NCBI GenBank assembly: GCA_028872875.1
Contig: JAGWOC010000011.1
Coordinates: forward strand, 1 to 61,122
Reading direction: 5' to 3'
From: Chloroflexota bacterium
Lineage (GTDB): Bacteria > Chloroflexota > Dehalococcoidia > DSTF01 > JACRBR01
DNA length: 61,122 nucleotides
The notes beneath the pieces were generated by a model that did no database searches, was not told the origin of the DNA, and was given only the letters and a program-made list of their open reading frames with translations. Below, piece by piece: positions 39,194 to 53,241 of this stretch. The number at the start of each line of letters is the position of its first letter. Position 1 is the stretch's first letter. A program made the translations under genes and the position numbers.

Positions 39194-39323
39194 CCCTCTA
39201 TCTATCGACCGCCGCAACTGCGGGGCACAGAGGGATACGGCGTAGACGCTGTGGGGAGGCGGGGGTGCCGCGCCCGCCCCAGGTGCGCCGTCACGCATGC
39301 GGCACCGCCCGGAATGGCGGCTG

Positions 39324-40826
39324 CTACAGCTCTTCGGCGACCGCGGACCGCGCGCCGCCACGGCGCGTGGCGGGTTTTGGCGGCGCGTCGCCGGGTGCGG
39401 GCTGTCCCGGCAGCACCAGGGTGAAGAGTACGTGGTGGTCGCCGTCGTTGCGGGCGGTGACCTCGCCGCGGTTGAGCTCGACGAGCTGGCGGCCGATCGC
39501 GAGCCCCAGGCCGCTGCCTGCGGCGGTGCGCCGGGCCCGGTCGCCACGGAAGAAGCGGTCGAAGAGCCGCGGCAGGTCCTCGGCTGCGATGGGTGTGCCC
39601 GAGTTGCGCACCGTGCAGAAGACGCGTGGCGCGGGCGCCTTCTCCCGCCATCCCCGCACCTCGATCGTGCCGCCTGGGGGAGCGAACTTCGTGGCGTTGT
39701 CCAGGATGTTCGTGAAGGCGCGTTCGAGCTTGTCCGGGTCAACGCCACCGAGCACGGCGTCGGGTGCGACATCGACCGACACAGCGATCTGTTTCGCCCG
39801 CGCCGAGGGTTCGATGCGGCGCACGCAGCGCGTCACGATGGCATCGAGCGGCACGTCCTCTTCGCGCGTGAGCACCTGTCCGGCGTCGATCTCGCCGAGG
39901 TACAGCAGGTCCGCGAGGAGCGTGTTGACGTGCTCCGCCTCCTCGCGGATCACGGTGCCGATGCGCGCGGCGTCGTCCGGCTCCGCCGTGCCGTCGGTGA
40001 GCGCCTGCGCGTACCCCGTGATCGACGTCATCGGCGTCTTCAGGTCGTGGGAGACGTTCGCCAGCAGGCGGCGCATCTGCGTGTCGCGCTGGCCGACGCG
40101 CTCGGCCATGACCGAGAACGAGCGGGCGAGGCGGCCCACCTCGTCGTCGCGCGCGACCTCAACGCGCTGGTCGAAGTCGCCGGCGGCCATCGCCTCAGAG
40201 GCCATATTGAGCTTCCTCAGCGGCTGCACGATCTGGCGGGCGAAGAGGAAGGCGGCGAGCGACGCGATCGCGATGGCGATGAGCGCGGCGAGCGCGAGGC
40301 CGGGCAGCAAGCCGAGCCAGGCGCTGGCGAGCGTGGCCGTGTTGACGACGAGGACGATGCGGAACGGCAGGCGGCTATCGCCGCTGAGAAAAGTATTGGC
40401 AGTGATCAGCGTCATGTTGTGACCGACGCCGGGGTCGCTGGACTGCCAGGCGACGTAGCCGCGAGGCGAACCGACCGGCTGGACGGGCAGGGCGATGCTC
40501 CTCCCCTGCGCCTCATTGCTCGTGTCGTGCAGGACGATGTTGCTCGTGGAGAGCAGCAGGATGCGGACGTCCTGCTGCCGCGACAGGCCATCGAGCGTGG
40601 CGTAGAAGCCGGTGAGGTCCGTGCGGACGGCGGCGACGACCGCCTGCTGGTAGATCGCCGGCGAGGCGGCGACCACGCGGTTGAGCGCCTGGTCGCGCCG
40701 CTCCTCGCGCGTGCGCGTCACGAAGACGGCGCCGGCGAGGAAGATCGCGAGCACGATGACGGCCGTCATCGCCAGCACGAGCTTCGTCTGGATGCTGAAG
40801 ACGAACGAGCGCAGCCGCGCGTTCAC
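39324..40826 (-). CDS. Sensor histidine kinase (HAMP, HisKA, HATPase)
   Basis: The 500-residue product has a membrane helix at about 14-35, an extracytoplasmic sensor of about 130 residues and a second helix (about 170-195). It then has a HAMP domain, a HisKA domain with the phospho-acceptor in NVSHDLKTPMTS, and an HATPase domain with the N box (DNATKFAP) and G box (AGSGLGLAIGRQL). It begins with GTG in a GTGA overlap with the response regulator, making a cognate pair. The signal is unknown. The neighbouring secreted repeat protein, upstream in the same orientation, could be a partner or target. Confidence 0.93.
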   Translation of the reverse strand: MNARLRSFVFSIQTKLVLAMTAVIVLAIFLAGAVFVTRTREERRDQALNRVVAASPAIYQQAVVAAVRTDLTGFYATLDGLSRQQDVRILLLSTSNIVLHDTSNEAQGRSIALPVQPVGSPRGYVAWQSSDPGVGHNMTLITANTFLSGDSRLPFRIVLVVNTATLASAWLGLLPGLALAALIAIAIASLAAFLFARQIVQPLRKLNMASEAMAAGDFDQRVEVARDDEVGRLARSFSVMAERVGQRDTQMRRLLANVSHDLKTPMTSITGYAQALTDGTAEPDDAARIGTVIREEAEHVNTLLADLLYLGEIDAGQVLTREEDVPLDAIVTRCVRRIEPSARAKQIAVSVDVAPDAVLGGVDPDKLERAFTNILDNATKFAPPGGTIEVRGWREKAPAPRVFCTVRNSGTPIAAEDLPRLFDRFFRGDRARRTAAGSGLGLAIGRQLVELNRGEVTARNDGDHHVLFTLVLPGQPAPGDAPPKPATRRGGARSAVAEEL

Positions 40827-41521
40827 GCCGGGACGGCCTCCACGAGGCGGTAGCCGCTGCCCCAGACCGTCTCAATCCGGACGCCCGCACCATCGAGCTT
40901 GCTGCGCAGGCGGACGACGTGCACATCGACCGTCCGCATGCTGTAGAACGACGTGCCCCAGACGAGATCGAGCAGCTTCTCGCGGTCCAGCGTCACGTTT
41001 GCGAAGCGGGCGAAGGTCGCGAGCAGGTCGAACTCCTTGGGCGTCAGCGCCAGCGGGGCGTCCTTGACGGTGGCGACGCGGTTCGGGACGTCCATGCGCA
41101 GTTCGCCGATCGCGATGCGCTCGCCGGCCGGCTCCGCGAGCGAGCGGCTACGGCGGAGGACGGACTGGACCCGCGCCACGAGCTCGGCGGGGTTGAACGG
41201 CTTCGTAACGTAGTCATCGCCCCCGAACTGGAGGCCGGCGACCTTATCGATGTCCGACGAGCGGGCGGAGAGAAAGATCACCGGCAGGTCGCTGCGCCGG
41301 CGCAGGCTGCGGACGATCTGGAGGCCGTCCGGGCCGGGCATCATGATGTCGAGCACGGCCAGGTCGAACTCGTAGGAGCGGAGCAGCCGCTGCGTCTCCT
41401 CGCCATCGCGCGCGGTCACCACCTCGTAGCCGGCCTTCTTCAGGTACATGCGGACGAGGTCGACGATGTGGGCATCGTCGTCGGCCACCAGGATGCGGGC
41501 GGGGTCGTGCTGTTCGTTCAT
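40823..41521 (-). CDS. OmpR/PhoB-family response regulator
   Basis: The 232-residue product has a receiver domain with the acidic pocket DDD (14-16), phospho-acceptor D58 in AVLDIMMPG and the conserved lysine in VTKPF. A winged-helix DNA-binding domain (LTPKEFDLLATFA; VDVHVVRLRSKL; GYRLV) follows. It is the first gene of the pair and overlaps the kinase by 4 bp. A -10 box and a GGAG lie just upstream. Confidence 0.95.
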   Translation of the reverse strand: MNEQHDPARILVADDDAHIVDLVRMYLKKAGYEVVTARDGEETQRLLRSYEFDLAVLDIMMPGPDGLQIVRSLRRRSDLPVIFLSARSSDIDKVAGLQFGGDDYVTKPFNPAELVARVQSVLRRSRSLAEPAGERIAIGELRMDVPNRVATVKDAPLALTPKEFDLLATFARFANVTLDREKLLDLVWGTSFYSMRTVDVHVVRLRSKLDGAGVRIETVWGSGYRLVEAVPA

Positions 41522-41536
41522 CTCTGTTACGGCTCC

Positions 41537-41542
41537 AGTGTA
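41537..41542 (-). promoter_or_regulatory. -10 box TACACT of the two-component operon
   Basis: TACACT on the minus strand sits 15 bp before the response-regulator ATG and 3 bp after the terminator U-tract of the upstream gene, so terminator and promoter are packed together. Confidence 0.45.
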
Positions 41543-41544
41543 GA

Positions 41545-41574
41545 GAAAACGGCAGGCCGCGCGCGGCCTGCCGT
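41545..41574 (-). terminator. Intrinsic terminator after the secreted repeat protein
   Basis: On the minus strand ACGGCAGGCCGC and GCGGCCTGCCGT form a 12-bp perfect stem around a 2-nt core, followed directly by TTTTCTC. It is a canonical rho-independent terminator and lies 19 bp past the gene's stop codon. Confidence 0.85.
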
Positions 41575-41592
41575 CAACTCGGCTCGCGGCGT

Positions 41593-42696
41593 CTAGCTCG
41601 ACTCGAGCACGCTCATCGCCGACCCGGCGGGAGCCGGAATGTCATAGCGCGCCCCGGTCCCGGGCGTTGCCGGTGTCCCCGGCGTCTCCGGCGTCTCCGG
41701 CTGCTCTGGCCCCTCCCGGCCGAAGAACGGCATGCCGGGCATCATCCCGCGGCCACCGGGGCCCCAGAGCGGCAGCTTGCCGTCGATCAGCGCGTCCAGG
41801 TTGGACGACAGCAGCGAGAGCATGCTGGTCTCCTGCTGCTGCGTCAGCTTCCCAGCCTTGACCGCCTGATCGAGCTGGGTCTTGGCCTCGCTGGTGATGA
41901 AGTTCTTCAGGTCCGTCCGGCTCTTGCCGTGCGCCTGGGCGACAGTGGCCAGCGTGGCGTTGCTCGCCTGAAGCTCCGTCCGCAACTGGCTCGTGCTGAT
42001 GCCCAGGAAGCTCGCCAGCTTGCCCATCTCCACGCCGGGGATCCCCGGGCCGAAGGCCCCGGGGCCCGAGAGGGGCAGCTTGCCGTCGATTATGGCGTCC
42101 ACGTTGGACGACAGCAGCGAGAGCATGCTGGTCTCCTGCTGCTGCGTCAGCTTCCCGTCCTTGACCGCCTCGTCGAGGCGCGTCTTGGCCTCGCTGGTGA
42201 TGAAGTTCTTGAGGTCCGTCCGGCTCTTGCCGTGCGCCTGGGCGACAGTGGCCAGCGTGGCGTTGCTCGCCTGAAGCTCCGTCCGCAACTGGCTCGCGCT
42301 GATGCCCAGGAAGCTCGCCAGCTTGCCCATCTCCGGGCCAAGGGGCCCCATGCCGAAACCCTTCGGTCCGTGCATGCCGGGGCCGAACCCGTGGTCAAAG
42401 AAGGGGCCGCCGAGCCCCGGGCCCCTGCCCTGGGCGATAGCCTGTTTCAGTTGGTCGGCCTGCTGCTGCGTCAGCTTGCCGCTCTTCACCATCGCATCGA
42501 TCTGGTCGTTCGCCGCGCTGTTGATGGCGCTCTGCAGCTTCGGCGTGGTAATGCCGAGCTTCTGCGCCACACGGTCGAGGAACGAGGTCGCCGTACCTGC
42601 GCCGGGCGTCGGCGTCTGCGCCATCACCACCCCTGCCCCGACGACCACCACAAGGGCCGCACCGCCGACCGCCGCGAGCCACCACCTTCGCTTCAC
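41593..42696 (-). CDS. Secreted repeat protein with a duplicated ~88-residue module
   Basis: The 367-residue product starts with a signal-like segment (KRRWWLAAVGGAALVVVVGAGVVMA). A first helical unit follows, then two near-identical modules of about 88 residues: MGKLASFLGISxSQLRTELQASNATLATVAQAHGKSRTDLKNFI, ending LTQQQETSMLSLLSSN. Gly/Pro-rich linkers separate them and the C-terminus is Pro/Thr-rich (TPETPGTPATPGT), probably exposed. Helical LTQQQ segments resemble small bacterial periplasmic helical proteins, but I cannot name a family. GTG 42696 follows GGAGG by 5 nt. It ends in a strong terminator before the two-component operon. Confidence 0.75.
   Translation of the reverse strand: MKRRWWLAAVGGAALVVVVGAGVVMAQTPTPGAGTATSFLDRVAQKLGITTPKLQSAINSAANDQIDAMVKSGKLTQQQADQLKQAIAQGRGPGLGGPFFDHGFGPGMHGPKGFGMGPLGPEMGKLASFLGISASQLRTELQASNATLATVAQAHGKSRTDLKNFITSEAKTRLDEAVKDGKLTQQQETSMLSLLSSNVDAIIDGKLPLSGPGAFGPGIPGVEMGKLASFLGISTSQLRTELQASNATLATVAQAHGKSRTDLKNFITSEAKTQLDQAVKAGKLTQQQETSMLSLLSSNLDALIDGKLPLWGPGGRGMMPGMPFFGREGPEQPETPETPGTPATPGTGARYDIPAPAGSAMSVLESS
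41771..42338. repeat. Internal direct repeat, period 303 bp
   Basis: The segments 41771-42035 and 42074-42338 (about 265 bp each) are nearly identical and offset by 303 bp (101 codons), inside the secreted repeat protein gene. Similarity extends to synonymous sites, indicating a recent in-frame duplication. Confidence 0.85.
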
Positions 42697-42894
42697 AAGG
42701 ACCTCCAGTCGCAACCATCGCCTGCGCTACCGCGTGCATGGTAACCGCCGGCGGCCCGTGAGAGTGTTTCGAAGCGATTAGGCGTCGCGCGGCCCCATAC
42801 GGCGCCCGCCGGCAACTTTCTCAGAAATCCGTGGCCGGGGCCAACAGATCGGCCGAGGCCCGACCGATGAGTACTGTGGACAACCGAATACCAG

Positions 42895-43006
42895 CTCCGA
42901 CAAAGGCAAACCCGCCGAAAGGCGGCGACGCAAAGCTACGGGCCTACCTCCCCCTTTGGGGACACGGTCGCCGGGCCACCGAAGGCGGGACGTCATTGGG
43001 TCGGAG
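42895..43006 (+). ncRNA. Cyclic-di-GMP-I (GEMM-I) riboswitch aptamer
   Basis: The segment 42901-42980 carries the GEMM-I hallmarks in order: AAAGGCAAACC, a P1b stem CGCC/GGCG capped by a GAAA tetraloop, GACGCAAAGC, CGGGCCTACC (tetraloop-receptor side), a third stem (CCCC/GGGG loop) and GCCGGGCCACC. CTCCGAC (42895-42901) pairs perfectly with GTCGGAG (43000-43006), closing the element. The element is upstream of a small ORF and the SRPBCC/AIRS/AAA+/VWA cluster on the same strand. An intrinsic terminator follows within 5 nt. Confidence 0.88.
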
Positions 43007-43010
43007 TCTG

Positions 43011-43043
43011 CAGCCCTCATCCGCTGCGGATGCAGGGCTTTTT
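43011..43043 (+). terminator. Intrinsic terminator of the riboswitch expression platform
   Basis: AGCCCT-CATCCGC (43012-43024) pairs with GCGGATG-C-AGGGCT (43026-43039) and runs straight into TTTTT (43039-43043), a canonical rho-independent terminator. It lies right after the aptamer and ahead of the ORF at 43088, so the riboswitch probably acts by attenuation. Confidence 0.88.
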
Positions 43044-43087
43044 CGTGCCCCCGGCTCGATGGCGCGAGGATCGAAGACGAGGGGACC

Positions 43088-43384
43088 ATGAAGGCAGCAA
43101 CAGGCACAGCGGACACGGCTCGACCCTCGCCGCCCGCCGCCCTCCGGCCCTCGCGGTGGTCCTACCTGATCAGCGCTCTGACGGACGGAGTCGGCCGAGG
43201 TCACGTTACCCCAACCCCAACCCCTGACCCTGACCCCTGTGGCCCCGGCTCACGCCTTGCGTGTGGACTGCGTCTGAGCGAATTGGCGTCGTGCAGGACC
43301 TCCGCGCGGACTCGTTCCGCCGGAGGTGCGACGCCGCCGGGCCGAGCCCTGGGCCTGCAAGCCGCGTTCCCTCCTCCCAGGTAA
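43088..43384 (+). pseudogene. Small riboswitch-linked ORF, possibly a broken gene
   Basis: An ATG with GAGGGG 4 nt upstream opens a 98-codon frame directly after the riboswitch terminator. The first ~37 residues (KAATGTADTARPSPPAALRPSRWSYLISALTDGVGR) could be a genuine N-terminus. From about 43200 the frame runs through a C-rich low-complexity tract (TPTPTPDPDP) and then arginine-rich sequence typical of out-of-frame GC-rich DNA. It may be the truncated start of the original riboswitch target, a short leader ORF, or chance. No family recognised. Confidence 0.4.
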
Positions 43385-43523
43385 CGCGATTCGCCCTCGG
43401 GCGAACCCAGGCTCGGCCCGGTCCCCTGCACCCGTGCCCCTTCCCATACAGCTTCGGCCCGGCCGCACGCGATCCGCAGCAAGCGCGCCGGGGCGGCCTC
43501 GCACGGTGTATGCTAGCCGGCAC
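43208..43523. other. Low-complexity tract and gene-poor gap
   Basis: CCCCAACCCC and CCCTGACCC type repeats fill 43208-43240, followed by about 280 bp in which I recognise no gene. Stop-free frames here are chance. A TATGCT -10 candidate at 43509-43514 lies nine bases before the SRPBCC start, so the cluster may have its own near-leaderless promoter besides riboswitch read-through. Confidence 0.5.
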
Positions 43524-43994
43524 ATGGCCGCGTATTACACCGCCCAGGCGTACGATGCGCCCGCGCACCTGATCTGGCCGATCCTGACGGATTTCGCATC
43601 CTGGCCGCACTGGTTTCCGCGCGTCTCGGCCGTGGAGTTCGACGGTGGCGCGCGGCCGGCCGCAGGCAGCGAGCTGCTCGCGCTTGGTGCTGAGCCGCAC
43701 ATCTGGACCCGCTGGCGCATCGGCGAGTGGCGGGAGCCGTCGCGCCTGCTCTGCGAGCACGTCGAGTCGAGCGCGCCGATGGCCGGGCACGTGCAGGCGG
43801 CGTATCTACAGTTCGAGCTCATCGACGACCCGGAGGGCTGCACGCTGGAAGTCGAGCTCGGCGCTGACGGCTACGGGCTGGTGGGCGACTTCTTCGTCGG
43901 CTTCACGCTCGGCTCGGAGGTGCGCCGGATACTGCCGCAGCTCGTCGATGCGTTCAGCGACTACGTCGTGCGGCGCACGGCGGCGGGCGCATGA
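43524..43994 (+). CDS. SRPBCC-family (START/Bet v1-like) protein
   Basis: The 156-residue product is a single SRPBCC domain: AYDAPAHLIWPILTDFASWPHWFPRVSAVEF at the N-terminus, the usual beta-sheet core, and a long C-terminal helix (ILPQLVDAFSDYV). These folds bind hydrophobic ligands or assist cofactor chemistry; CoxG in CO dehydrogenase clusters is one example. ATG 43524 matches the family start, and the longer frame upstream is low-complexity. Its stop overlaps the next gene's ATG (ATGA), linking it to the AIR-synthase-like gene. Confidence 0.75.
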   Translation: MAAYYTAQAYDAPAHLIWPILTDFASWPHWFPRVSAVEFDGGARPAAGSELLALGAEPHIWTRWRIGEWREPSRLLCEHVESSAPMAGHVQAAYLQFELIDDPEGCTLEVELGADGYGLVGDFFVGFTLGSEVRRILPQLVDAFSDYVVRRTAAGA

Positions 43995-45046
43995 CGCTCC
44001 GCGCCGGCAAGCTGCCCGCAGATGTGCTCGCCGGCCTCCTCGCACGGCTCCCGCGGCGCGACCCGCGCGTGCTCGTTGGCCCCGGAGTCGGCCGCGACGC
44101 CGCCGTGCTCGACCTGGGCGACCGGCTGCTCGTCGCGAAGAGTGACCCCGTCACCTTCGCGGCCGACGACATCGGCTGGTACGCCGTGCACGTCAACGCG
44201 AATGACGTCGCCTGCATGGGCGCACGGCCGGCGTGGTTCCTTGCGACGGCGCTCCTGCCAGCGGGCGCGCCGGAAACACTGCCGGGCGTGATCTTCGACC
44301 AGCTCGTTGCCGCCTGCGACGCGCTGGGCGTGGAGCTGATCGGCGGGCACACGGAGGTGACGCACGTCGACCACGCGATCGTCGCCGGCACGATGATCGG
44401 CGAGGCATCGCCTGACGAACTGATCCGCGGGGAGCATATCCGGCCGGGAGACCGCGTGCTCCTGACGAAGGGCATCGCGATCGAGGGCACGGCGCTGCTG
44501 GCGCGCGAGTCGGCCGCTCTGCTCCGCGAGCGCGGCGTGCCGGAAGCCGTGATCGCACGCGCGCGGGGGATGCTCTTCGATCCGGGGATCAGCGTCGTCC
44601 GAGACGCGCAGACGATCGCTGCGGCGGCGCGGCCGCGGCTCCTGCACGACCCGACGGAGGGCGGCGTCGCGACCGCGCTCGAGGAGATGGCACAGGCGGC
44701 GGGCGCCACGCTCGTGGTCGACCCGGCGGCGATCCCACTGCTACCCGAGACGCGTATCATCTGCGCGGCCCTCGCCCTCGACCCGCTGGGCCTGCTGGCG
44801 TCGGGGGCGCTGCTCGCCATCGTGGCCCCAGGCGACTTCGAGCGGATCGCGGCCGGGCTGGCAGATGTTACGATCACGTGCCAGGCGATCGGGCAGGTCG
44901 AACGCGGGCGGCCGCGGGTTATACTGGACGGCGTGGAGCCAGCGACGCCGCTGGCGTCGTTCTCCCGCGACGAGCTCGCACGGTTCTACGAGACGCAGCC
45001 GGACGATACTGGAGACAGAGCGACAACAGCGGAAGGACCGCGATAG
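43991..45046 (+). CDS. AIR synthase-superfamily protein, HypE-like
   Basis: The 351-residue protein has the PurM/HypE fold. The N-terminal ATP-binding half contains VGPGVGRDAAVLDLGDRLLVAKSDPVTFAADDIGWYAVHVNANDVACMGARP, ending in a typical GGHTEVTHVD. The C-terminal AIRS_C half contains LHDPTEGGVATALEEMAQAAG and ALALDPLGLLASGALL. Family members phosphorylate or dehydrate substrates (PurM, ThiL, SelD, HypE). The HypE terminal cysteine (PxxC) is absent: the C-terminus ends TTAEGPR. No other hyp genes are nearby, so a hydrogenase role is unlikely. The next gene begins immediately after its stop. Confidence 0.72.
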   Translation: MTLRAGKLPADVLAGLLARLPRRDPRVLVGPGVGRDAAVLDLGDRLLVAKSDPVTFAADDIGWYAVHVNANDVACMGARPAWFLATALLPAGAPETLPGVIFDQLVAACDALGVELIGGHTEVTHVDHAIVAGTMIGEASPDELIRGEHIRPGDRVLLTKGIAIEGTALLARESAALLRERGVPEAVIARARGMLFDPGISVVRDAQTIAAAARPRLLHDPTEGGVATALEEMAQAAGATLVVDPAAIPLLPETRIICAALALDPLGLLASGALLAIVAPGDFERIAAGLADVTITCQAIGQVERGRPRVILDGVEPATPLASFSRDELARFYETQPDDTGDRATTAEGPR

Positions 45047-50255: not shown

Positions 50256-50271
50256 GCGGGCTAACTCCCGC
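50256..50271. terminator. Hairpin spanning two convergent stop codons
   Basis: GCGGG-CTAACT-CCCGC spans the 6-bp gap between the desaturase-like gene and the convergent acyltransferase. It could act in both directions but has no U-tract. Confidence 0.3.
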
Positions 50272-51280
50272 CGCCGCCGCTGCCCGGCGCTGCCGCCAGC
50301 TCGCCCGCGGGCGCTTCGGCCTGGCGTGGCTGCGCGCCGGCGAGCGCGCGCATCGCGTCCTCCAGCAGCGCCGTGCCCTCGGGCACCGACGCCACGCCCT
50401 CGAGCCTGATAGGCGCGCCGATGCGCGCCCTCACCGCGGCCGGCCGCGGCTCGCGCTGGCCCTTCGGCATCACGTCCCGCAGGCCCTCGACGTACACAGG
50501 GATCACGGGCACCTTCGCCTGCATCGCCATGACCGCGACGCCGTGCCTGAAACGCTGCACCTGCCCGGACTTCGAGCGGCCGCCCTCGGGATAGATCAGG
50601 ATCGACCAGCCGCGCCGGAACAGCGACAGCGGGTAGTCGAGCTGCTTCGTGCCGCCGCCCCGCGAGACCGGAAACGTGCCGTGAAAGAGCGAGTACCACC
50701 ACGTGCGCTTCCTGCGGCTGCCGTAGAACTTGTCGGCGGCCGCCGCAATGACGATCTTGCCCCGGACGCGCTCCGGCAGCGCCGACAGCACGGCCGGCGT
50801 GTCGAAGTGGGAGGTGTGATTGGCGATGACGATCGCCGGACCGCCGAAGCCGCGCAGGTGATCGGCGCCCTCGACCACGAATGGCCGGCAGTAGCGCCGC
50901 ACGTGGCGCGTCGTCACCCAGTAGCGGCCGGCGCGCCGCACCGCCCGCGCCCAGAGCGCGGTCTGCCAGCGGTGCGGCTCGGTGCGATACGGCTGCATCC
51001 GCAGCAGCTCCGTGAAGCGATCGAGGCCGATTGCCGGGTACGCCGTGAGCACGGCAGTGCCGATGCTGCTGATCTCGGCCGAGATGCGCCCGACGGCGGC
51101 GTTGTCGGCGGCCTCGATGACGGTGACGAAATCGTAGGCGCCGAGCGTCGCGAACTGGTGCCGCACCTTCGCGCCGAGCCGCTCCGCCTGCCGCGTGACC
51201 TCGTCGAGCCGGTCGGGGTCGTTGCGGATCGACGTGCGCCCGGCGGCGGTGAGCTTCGTCAGGACGACGTACGCGGGCAT
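50261..51280 (-). CDS. GYD domain fused to PlsC-type acyltransferase
   Basis: Residues about 1-95 form a GYD domain (YVVLTKLTAAGRTSI; HQFATLGAYDFVTVIEA), a small ferredoxin-like fold of unknown function. From residue about 115 on, a 1-acyl-glycerol-3-phosphate acyltransferase domain has motif I NHTSHFD (H155, D160) and motif III YPEGGRSKSG (E232, G233, R235). This activity acylates lysophosphatidic acid in phospholipid synthesis. The C-terminus is Ala/Gly-rich. A lone GYD gene sits 5 bp upstream, so the same domain occurs twice in a row, once fused. Confidence 0.82.
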   Translation of the reverse strand: MPAYVVLTKLTAAGRTSIRNDPDRLDEVTRQAERLGAKVRHQFATLGAYDFVTVIEAADNAAVGRISAEISSIGTAVLTAYPAIGLDRFTELLRMQPYRTEPHRWQTALWARAVRRAGRYWVTTRHVRRYCRPFVVEGADHLRGFGGPAIVIANHTSHFDTPAVLSALPERVRGKIVIAAAADKFYGSRRKRTWWYSLFHGTFPVSRGGGTKQLDYPLSLFRRGWSILIYPEGGRSKSGQVQRFRHGVAVMAMQAKVPVIPVYVEGLRDVMPKGQREPRPAAVRARIGAPIRLEGVASVPEGTALLEDAMRALAGAQPRQAEAPAGELAAAPGSGGGGS

Positions 51281-51706: not shown

Positions 51707-53056
51707 TCAGATCAGCGAGCAGAAGAGGCGCGCCAGCTCGGCGTCGAGCTGGGTGCCGGCGGCGCCGAGCAGGATCTGCTTCGCGTCGGCCGGCGAGACG
51801 GCGCGGCGGTGCGCGCGCTCGGCCGTCAGCGCCGAGTAGACATCGGCTACGGCGATGATCCGCGCCTCGAGCGGCAGCTCATCCCCGCTGAGCATATCCG
51901 GATAGCCCTTGCCGTCCGGCCGCTCGTGGTGGCGCGCCACCCAGAAGGCGATCTCCTCGAAGCCGTTCAGCCCCTGCAGGATCCGTTCGGAGTTCGACGG
52001 GTGCTGGCGCATCACCTGCATCTCCGTCACGGAGAGGATGTCGGGTTTCGACATGATGCGCGCCGGCACGCCGAGCAGCCCGACGTTGTGCAGCAGCGCG
52101 GCGATCCGGATCATCTCCACGTGCCCCTCGTCGAGCGAGCAGGCCAGTGCGAGCTTCTCCGCCGCCTCGGCGGTGCGGCGGGAGTGGCCGGCGGTGCGCC
52201 CGCCCTTCGCGTCGGCGATGTCCGCGAAGACCTCGGCGAAGCGCACCACGCGCTTGCGGCTCTTGCGCGGCTCGGTTGACGCGCGCAGCGCCTGCAGCGT
52301 CTCCGGCATGTCCTCGGCGTACAGGCCCAGCCAGAACTCGTCCGACCTCCCGAGCTCCAGCAGCCTGCCGACGATGCTCGGGTCGAGGGAGATGCCGGCG
52401 TAGCGGCCAATCGCGGGCGCCAGCCGCCGCCGCGCGGCGAGTGAGCTCGCCTCGGCGGCGATCAGCGATTCCGCGAGGTCCGCCACCGCCAGGATGCGCG
52501 CTTCGAGCGCGATCGCCTTGCCGGCGACGCCCTCCGGAAAGCCGAACCCGTCCCATCGTTCGTGGTGGGCCGCGATCGCCGCGCTCACCTCGTCGGGGAG
52601 GTCGAGCGAGCGCACCGCCTCGGCACCCAGCGCGGCGTGCTGCTCGACGGCATCGACGACGGCGGAGAGATCGGCAAAGCTCAGGTCGCCGCGGAGCTCC
52701 TCGACCGACTTCAGCGGCGCCGGGCCGAAGATGGCATCCTCGTCGATGCCCGCGACGCGGCAGATGTCGGACGCGGCCAGCGTGACGCCGATATCGTGCA
52801 GGAGCGCGCCGAAATACACGGCGGTGCGCGCCGGCGGCTCGAGGCCGAGCGCATCGGCCAGCAGCGTCGCGATGTAGCAGACGCGCTGGGCGTGCCCCAT
52901 CACCTTGCCTTCGGCGAGGTCCAGCCCCTGGCTGAACGCGATCGCCAGCTCCGACGCCGTGAGCGCGTGGAGCCGCTCAGGCCGATGGGTGAGCGGGCGG
53001 GCGAGATCGTCGAGCGTCAGGATCGGGCGGCCCGAAGGATTGCTGTCGCTGACCAC
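51707..53056 (-). CDS. Tandem HD-domain protein ending in an HD-GYP domain
   Basis: The 449-residue protein has two HD-type hydrolase units. Unit 1 (about 50-200) has H55, HD 87-88 in LLHDIG and HHERWDGFGFP (H164-165). Unit 2 (about 270-440) has HSRRTAEAAEKL, HH 376-377 and DGKGYP (GYP 384-386), but the usual HD is HN (323-324, LLHNVGLLGVP), removing a metal ligand. Unit 1 may therefore be the catalytic one, or the second a cyclic-di-GMP sensor. GTG 53056 has GGGAG upstream; an ATG at 53119 is possible. No membrane helix. Confidence 0.8.
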   Translation of the reverse strand: MVSDSNPSGRPILTLDDLARPLTHRPERLHALTASELAIAFSQGLDLAEGKVMGHAQRVCYIATLLADALGLEPPARTAVYFGALLHDIGVTLAASDICRVAGIDEDAIFGPAPLKSVEELRGDLSFADLSAVVDAVEQHAALGAEAVRSLDLPDEVSAAIAAHHERWDGFGFPEGVAGKAIALEARILAVADLAESLIAAEASSLAARRRLAPAIGRYAGISLDPSIVGRLLELGRSDEFWLGLYAEDMPETLQALRASTEPRKSRKRVVRFAEVFADIADAKGGRTAGHSRRTAEAAEKLALACSLDEGHVEMIRIAALLHNVGLLGVPARIMSKPDILSVTEMQVMRQHPSNSERILQGLNGFEEIAFWVARHHERPDGKGYPDMLSGDELPLEARIIAVADVYSALTAERAHRRAVSPADAKQILLGAAGTQLDAELARLFCSLI

Positions 53057-53241
53057 AGACACTCCCGTTTGCTGTGCAAGAAACCGACCGGCTGTGATGT
53101 CTATGGTCAATATCGGCATCCGACCGCGCATCCTTTCAGGTGCGGGCCCCCTGTCTGGCAGCCGGACACGGGCGCAGACTCGCTCACGCCTCATGGGGTG
53201 GAAGCTGGAACGTCGATGCCGGGCGTGCTGAAAGGCCGAGG
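53057..53241. other. Gap upstream of the tandem HD gene with an 8-bp inverted repeat
   Basis: CCTTTCAG (53132-53139) and CTGAAAGG (53228-53235) are perfect complements 88 bp apart, enclosing GC-rich sequence. I see no gene or clear promoter. It may be a long-range stem in the transcript, but chance is not excluded. Confidence 0.3.

Follow-up and report, generated by a model that had tools for sequence, protein, structure and literature searches.

Few riboswitches have a noncoding RNA as their output, the main examples named being merRNA and the AdoCbl riboswitch sRNAs Rli55 and EutX, in which a response regulator of the ANTAR type is bound by the effector hairpins. merRNA, which is restricted to one lineage, is a noncoding RNA of ~450 nt from Bdellovibrio bacteriovorus that contains a c-di-GMP riboswitch and has no conserved ORF downstream (PMC3627812). 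Bdellovibrio also has a prominent sigma-28 (FliA) programme, the -10 element of which is CCGATA (PMC3627812). Bc1, a c-di-GMP-I riboswitch found in the Bacillus cereus group, has two U-tract terminators and extends up to mcpE, which encodes a protein (PMC11218506).

The locus described here is found in a Chloroflexota bacterium, Dehalococcoidia-like by its nearest named hits, of which a stretch of 61,122 nucleotides was analysed (the window, to which all positions refer), and is compared with the same locus in five relatives, G002, G003, G004, G005 and G006, all members of the family of the source genome. Its real point of interest is a probably new structured RNA that lies behind a confirmed riboswitch. 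Our preferred reading, to which a probability of roughly 0.55 is given, is that of a promoter, an aptamer and an attenuator, followed on read-through by a noncoding RNA with helices P1-P5 as the output. A sigma-28-like promoter would drive a leader in which a canonical c-di-GMP-I aptamer comes first, followed by an intrinsic terminator, and the occupancy of the aptamer by c-di-GMP would set how often transcription continues past the latter. Read-through would yield a structured noncoding RNA of ~250 nt with a fixed, C-rich loop exposed as a single strand; this RNA, rather than the SRPBCC/AIRS/AAA+/VWA gene cluster, would be the conserved output of the switch. The features of the locus are collected in Table 1.

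Table 1. Features of the riboswitch locus and of the gene that follows it, in window positions
Feature	Position	Strand	Support
Promoter-like bipartite motif CAACAGATC-N12-ACCGATGA, sigma-28-like -10	42842..42870	+	conserved in six syntenic loci
c-di-GMP-I riboswitch aptamer, canonical core by derivation (G20, A47, C92)	42895..42984	+	RF03167, RF01051, syntenic copies in five relatives
P0 5' strand CUCCGAC, overlapping aptamer P1	42895..42901	+	invariant in 6/6 loci; paired in minimum-energy fold
P0 3' strand GUCGGAG, just 5' of the terminator stem	43000..43006	+	invariant in 6/6 loci
Intrinsic terminator-like hairpin and U-tract (attenuator)	43012..43043	+	fold; hairpin recurs in relatives
Supposed short ORF, not protein-coding	43088..43384	+	codon-position substitutions
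Structured RNA domain A, stems P1, P2 and P3	43177..43288	+	covariation; model R1, 108 bits
C-rich P2 loop holding ACCCCAACCCCAACCCCUGACCCUGACCCC	43205..43238	+	core kept while stem covaries
Structured RNA stem P4	43285..43335	+	consensus fold, changes on both sides; shortened in G004
Long hairpin P5 with conserved GGCCUGCA	43336..43423	+	~17-bp stem in 6/6 loci, compensatory changes
TATGCT, -10-like box, probable separate leaderless SRPBCC promoter	43509..43514	+	TATGCT or TATGAT in 4/5 loci
SRPBCC gene (polyketide cyclase-like), opening what is probably a separate transcription unit	43524..43994	+	PF10604, E 1.7e-11

The aptamer, which has the canonical three-helix layout and a GAAA loop, had been recognized as c-di-GMP-I in a sequence-only reading of the same DNA from a series of motifs, all of which are present and in the right order. 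The identification is borne out by the covariance model of the class (RF01051), which matches the segment at 42895-42983 with 71.9 bits against a gathering score of 35 (E 5e-14). In a cmscan search of the whole window, c-di-GMP-I-GGC (RF03167) is matched at 42896-42984 (+) with 65.1 bits (gathering score 59, E 4e-13), and no second Rfam match above threshold, besides the c-di-GMP-I aptamer, is found in the 61 kb. RF03167 gives the best Rfam E-value, yet its consensus (GACGCGAAG) has G directly after the G21-C46 pair, where the window (GACGCAAAG) has A. The GGC variant, whose name is inferred from the RF03167 model to denote the three core bases, is therefore rejected for this aptamer, which passes the score threshold but has A instead of G at the diagnostic position 47. 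The ligand contacts of class I are named as G20, A47 and C92 in two reports (PMC9049102; PMC11218506). In the window aptamer these positions, derived from the G21-C46 pair and the cmscan alignment, are G, A and C, the remaining bases of the core being the G before the GC and the C in the 3' junction; A is also present at position 47 in the aptamers of those relatives whose alignments were inspected. The ligand core reads as the canonical c-di-GMP one, and the A at the diagnostic base, together with the G20/A47/C92 core, leads to a prediction of ordinary c-di-GMP binding. The source genome has three c-di-GMP-I riboswitches, and its 13 GGDEF domains make c-di-GMP synthesis by the organism plausible.

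Two further observations concern aptamers of this class. The stretch GACAACYGAATA, at 42879-42890 in the window, precedes the aptamer by 4-9 nt in c-di-GMP-I loci throughout much of the order, and may mark where the transcript starts or form the loop of a small hairpin. In genome G008 (L049:7325-7487, minus strand), a c-di-GMP-I aptamer with a footprint of 163 nt has a P3 with a long insertion and a repeated AAGGGACGCATYGGGC stretch.

The promoter-like motif, whose conserved form is C[AT][AT]CAGA[TC][CT]-N11/12-[GA][CAT]CGA, precedes the aptamer by 51-60 nt in each of the six syntenic loci; it is found again 79 nt 5' of another riboswitch of the source genome, the one that precedes a subtilase gene. 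Its -10 part, usually GCCGAT, resembles the sigma-28 -10 element, and a scan of 42700-43700 for sigma-70 consensus promoters returned none. In the form ACAGAT-N11/12-GCCGA, the bipartite motif recurs 5' of other c-di-GMP-I riboswitches, those at L034 (contig C140, source genome) and L028, so that these transcripts may share an alternative sigma factor. On contig C59 of the source genome (L035:6373-7095, minus strand), a c-di-GMP-I riboswitch is located 5' of a gene for a FliA/WhiG-type sigma factor, which scores 183.5 bits, just below the cutoff of 189.6, and similar sigma-factor ORFs are found 3' of c-di-GMP-I riboswitches in relatives from other families of the order. An appealing though unproven idea is a loop in which c-di-GMP controls the FliA/WhiG-type sigma factor and the latter in turn drives the transcripts of the other riboswitches.

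The aptamer is followed by a linker, by the 3' strand of P0 and by the terminator-like hairpin, whose predicted stem (43012-43039) comprises 12 bp with one bulge and is succeeded by a T-run to 43043. The sequence-only reading placed a U-tract terminator within 5 nt of the aptamer; the terminator folds as it described, but the stem starts 28 nt past the aptamer. A simple terminator scan did not list the 43012-43043 hairpin. In the relatives, a U-rich tail stands behind the hairpin everywhere except in G004, the hairpin of which has no U-tract. In the predicted folds of four relatives, GUCGGAG pairs with sequence beyond the terminator instead of with CUCCGAC; P0 and the terminator are able to coexist, and the alternative pairings vary among relatives. 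The parts needed for a switch are present in the attenuator region, as far as predicted folds indicate. We infer a single transcription unit that runs from the sigma-28-like promoter and is gated by c-di-GMP; the structured RNA, lying behind the terminator, could also have its own promoter.

A conserved structured block, common to all six loci, fills part of the space from the terminator to the next gene (43177-43423 in the window) and consists of domain A, with three stems and a nearly invariant C-rich loop, and of two further stems. The stretch 43185-43430 folds with a z-score of -4.5, and none of 200 shuffles is as low. In domain A, as judged from an alignment of only six related sequences that was fitted to the model and leans towards structure, a bias guarded against by slid controls and a separate pairwise test, standard pairs occupy 87% of cells (at most 44% in the slid controls), both sides have changed in nine of 26 pairs (2.8 on average after shuffling), and covariation scores 0.351, against 0.208 +/- 0.029 for shuffled and at most 0.123 for slid alignments. 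The pairwise test takes its pairs from the window's own fold, and 91% of them are kept in the congener G002, against 31-42% when slid; between these two species five pairs are double-compensated, and the substitution rate is 0.14 at paired and 0.34 at unpaired positions. P4 and the 17-bp P5 hairpin likewise covary. The ratio of G-U to A-C cells in domain A, 18:3, favours the plus strand as the RNA strand; over the entire block the ratio is a weak 129:98, and in four of the six loci the predicted fold of the minus strand is at least equally stable, so that the strand assignment rests on domain A and on the linkage to the riboswitch.

This linkage is constant. With model R1, the structured RNA is detected in six genomes of the family, once per genome (E < 1e-16), and in each of them it lies ~280 nt behind the riboswitch start. 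It is absent from the remaining order and from 387 other genomes in the 393-genome class sample searched with the model; the two family genomes that lack it are 72% and 76% complete. Apart from the aptamer, Rfam 15 has no match in 42850-43620 at E up to 5, nor any above threshold in the loci of the five relatives, and the downstream structured RNA is probably new. A riboswitch-bearing noncoding layout with a sigma-28-like promoter recalls the setting of merRNA (PMC3627812), for which a role as a store or sponge of c-di-GMP has been proposed in Bdellovibrio. The same role for the RNA described here is extremely unlikely, as a sponge requires an aptamer and very high expression only, and accounts neither for the terminator nor for the separately conserved P1-P5.

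Part of this region had been taken in the sequence-only reading for a short, possibly broken ORF. In 15 pairwise comparisons, however, substitutions in 43088-43384 fall on codon positions 1, 2 and 3 in the ratio 175:178:174, whereas the SRPBCC gene, used as control, gives 28:23:60 and 31:22:72 (window against G002 and G004, respectively). As the codon-position bias is absent, both a gene and a decayed gene are rejected: the region is non-coding and overlaps the conserved structured RNA. A fast-evolving leader peptide, in which an (X-Pro)n stretch stalls ribosomes and thereby alters the RNA fold, would have a possible start codon near +175 to +193 in all six loci, often after GGAG, and the chosen start opens a frame that reads TPTPDPDP, or nearly so, across the loop. 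Such a peptide is nevertheless barely credible, given the nil third-position bias, the near invariance of degenerate third bases within the loop, and the divergence of the reading frames past it; moreover, the start codons were selected with the frame already known.

The core of the C-rich loop, ACCCCAACCCCUGACCCUGACCCC, is kept in five of the six loci despite the changing stem, and one added six-base unit is shared by the window and G002. C-rich, G-poor and with many YC steps, the loop is held unpaired by the covarying stem. This composition would also suit a Rho-loading site, in which case the RNA would add a Rho-dependent attenuator or terminator to the first one and shield the operon next to it, with the long, stable hairpin P5 downstream as a place where polymerase could pause. 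Yet rut sites need less strict conservation than is seen in the 24-nt loop core, which five of the six loci retain although their similarity elsewhere is about 70%, and two further conserved helices are left unexplained, making a Rho-dependent element decidedly unlikely.

In the preferred reading, the loop would be the active part of the noncoding RNA, binding an RNA or a protein partner. More specifically, and tentatively, at somewhat less than even odds, the noncoding RNA may be specific to this lineage and gated by c-di-GMP, with a covarying stem that holds out the fixed C-rich loop, and may act in trans on mRNAs or a protein as part of a sigma-28-like programme. In a search of the family genomes for antisense targets, the only 16-nt complements with at most one mismatch came from the locus or from two C-rich tracts unrelated to it. 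Two other candidate roles for the loop are discarded: a dispersed repeat, as it is present in a single copy in the genome, and a tandem template for a reverse transcriptase, as in telomerase, as RVT_1 is over the cut-off in none of eight family genomes.

The first gene after the switch varies among the relatives, being an SRPBCC gene, a gene for a TSP3-repeat surface protein or a DinB-like one. The SRPBCC gene is located ~640-670 nt downstream of the riboswitch in G002 and G004. In G003 it comes at +4.5 kb, after a TSP3-repeat secreted protein and a fumarase-like ORF, and in G006 at +3.1 kb, after a DinB-like and a fumarase-like ORF, DinB and fumarase being names read off the sequence without a family search. 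In G005, which has a TSP3 and dockerin protein, the SRPBCC cluster is not found within the 7 kb examined. A TATGCT or TATGAT box is placed at -15/-16 from the SRPBCC ATG in four of five loci, including that of G003.

These arrangements bear on the sequence-only reading, which, while right about the riboswitch class and the attenuator, had the switch control the SRPBCC/HypE-like/AAA+/VWA cluster by read-through. The cluster does lie on the same strand, 480 nt past the terminator in the window and at a similar distance in two relatives. Variable downstream genes and a conserved -10 box belonging to SRPBCC itself argue against such control, however, as does the structured RNA with its long hairpin in between, and it is very unlikely that the cluster is the target. 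The HypE-like gene (43991-45046, +) is a member of the AIR-synthase family that, with 106 bits against the HypE cutoff of 251.6, falls far too low for the name HypE to be used. Nor does the nearby HD-GYP gene (51707-53194) provide a link between c-di-GMP and the cluster, although two HD-GYP-family genes had led the sequence-only reading to call such control probable, the 13 GGDEF domains being elsewhere in the genome.

Upstream of the riboswitch, a divergent response-regulator gene (40823-41521, minus strand) is recovered by tblastn in four of the five relatives, but not for G002 in the stretch examined. On the minus strand at 39324-42714 lie the divergent genes for a secreted protein resembling DUF2680, for a response regulator of the OmpR type and, probably, for a histidine kinase; the plus-strand ORFs at 39297-40853 and at 40919-41596 are likely their shadows. 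Further away, at 50261-51280 (minus strand), GYD and acyltransferase domains are joined in one ORF, an unfamiliar combination.

The TSP3-repeat proteins of G003 (787 aa) and G005 (about 800 aa, with a dockerin) are similar, and their genes begin 655-740 nt past the aptamer start. As both genomes keep this gene right after the RNA, the RNA could be a long mRNA leader there. Extended to the whole family, riboswitch and structured RNA would together be the long 5' leader of a secreted TSP3-repeat gene, which has been lost in the window's genus and has left a relic; the c-di-GMP switch of the source genome that precedes a subtilase would fit with this. Such an origin is unlikely, since pairing is still under selection between the window species and G002, both of which are without the gene, and this continued compensation counts against the relic form of the model. 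Furthermore, a TTGACA-N17-AAGATA between the structured RNA and the TSP3 gene of G003 suggests a separate promoter, and four genomes keep the RNA without a TSP3 gene.

At this locus, the automatic call that a riboswitch controls the next gene is probably wrong, and an apparent broken ORF turned out to be a structured RNA. If the preferred reading is true, a second-messenger riboswitch would have an RNA, not a protein, as its conserved output, and c-di-GMP would have an RNA output of its own in Chloroflexota, a phylum in which signalling by this messenger seems to have received little study. The comparative evidence spans five genera and, combined with the conserved putative attenuator and the covarying effector-like domain, makes the proposal directly testable.

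Among the known systems, merRNA comes nearest to the locus in layout, being a riboswitch-bearing noncoding RNA of a single lineage in a sigma-28 setting, and here too a conserved ORF is absent behind the aptamer, where no coding signal is seen and the next gene is variable. In contrast to merRNA, the window locus has a terminator-like attenuator between the aptamer and the covarying P1-P5 domain with its C-rich loop, and belongs to another phylum. Rli55 and EutX are alike in that full-length synthesis of a functional noncoding RNA depends on a riboswitch, although their ligand and aptamer are different. Bc1 shares the class I aptamer with a long expression platform and intrinsic terminators, but no conserved noncoding domain is seen in the description consulted (PMC11218506). 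Compared with the usual c-di-GMP-I riboswitch (RF01051), the locus would have a structured RNA in place of a directly downstream protein gene as its target.
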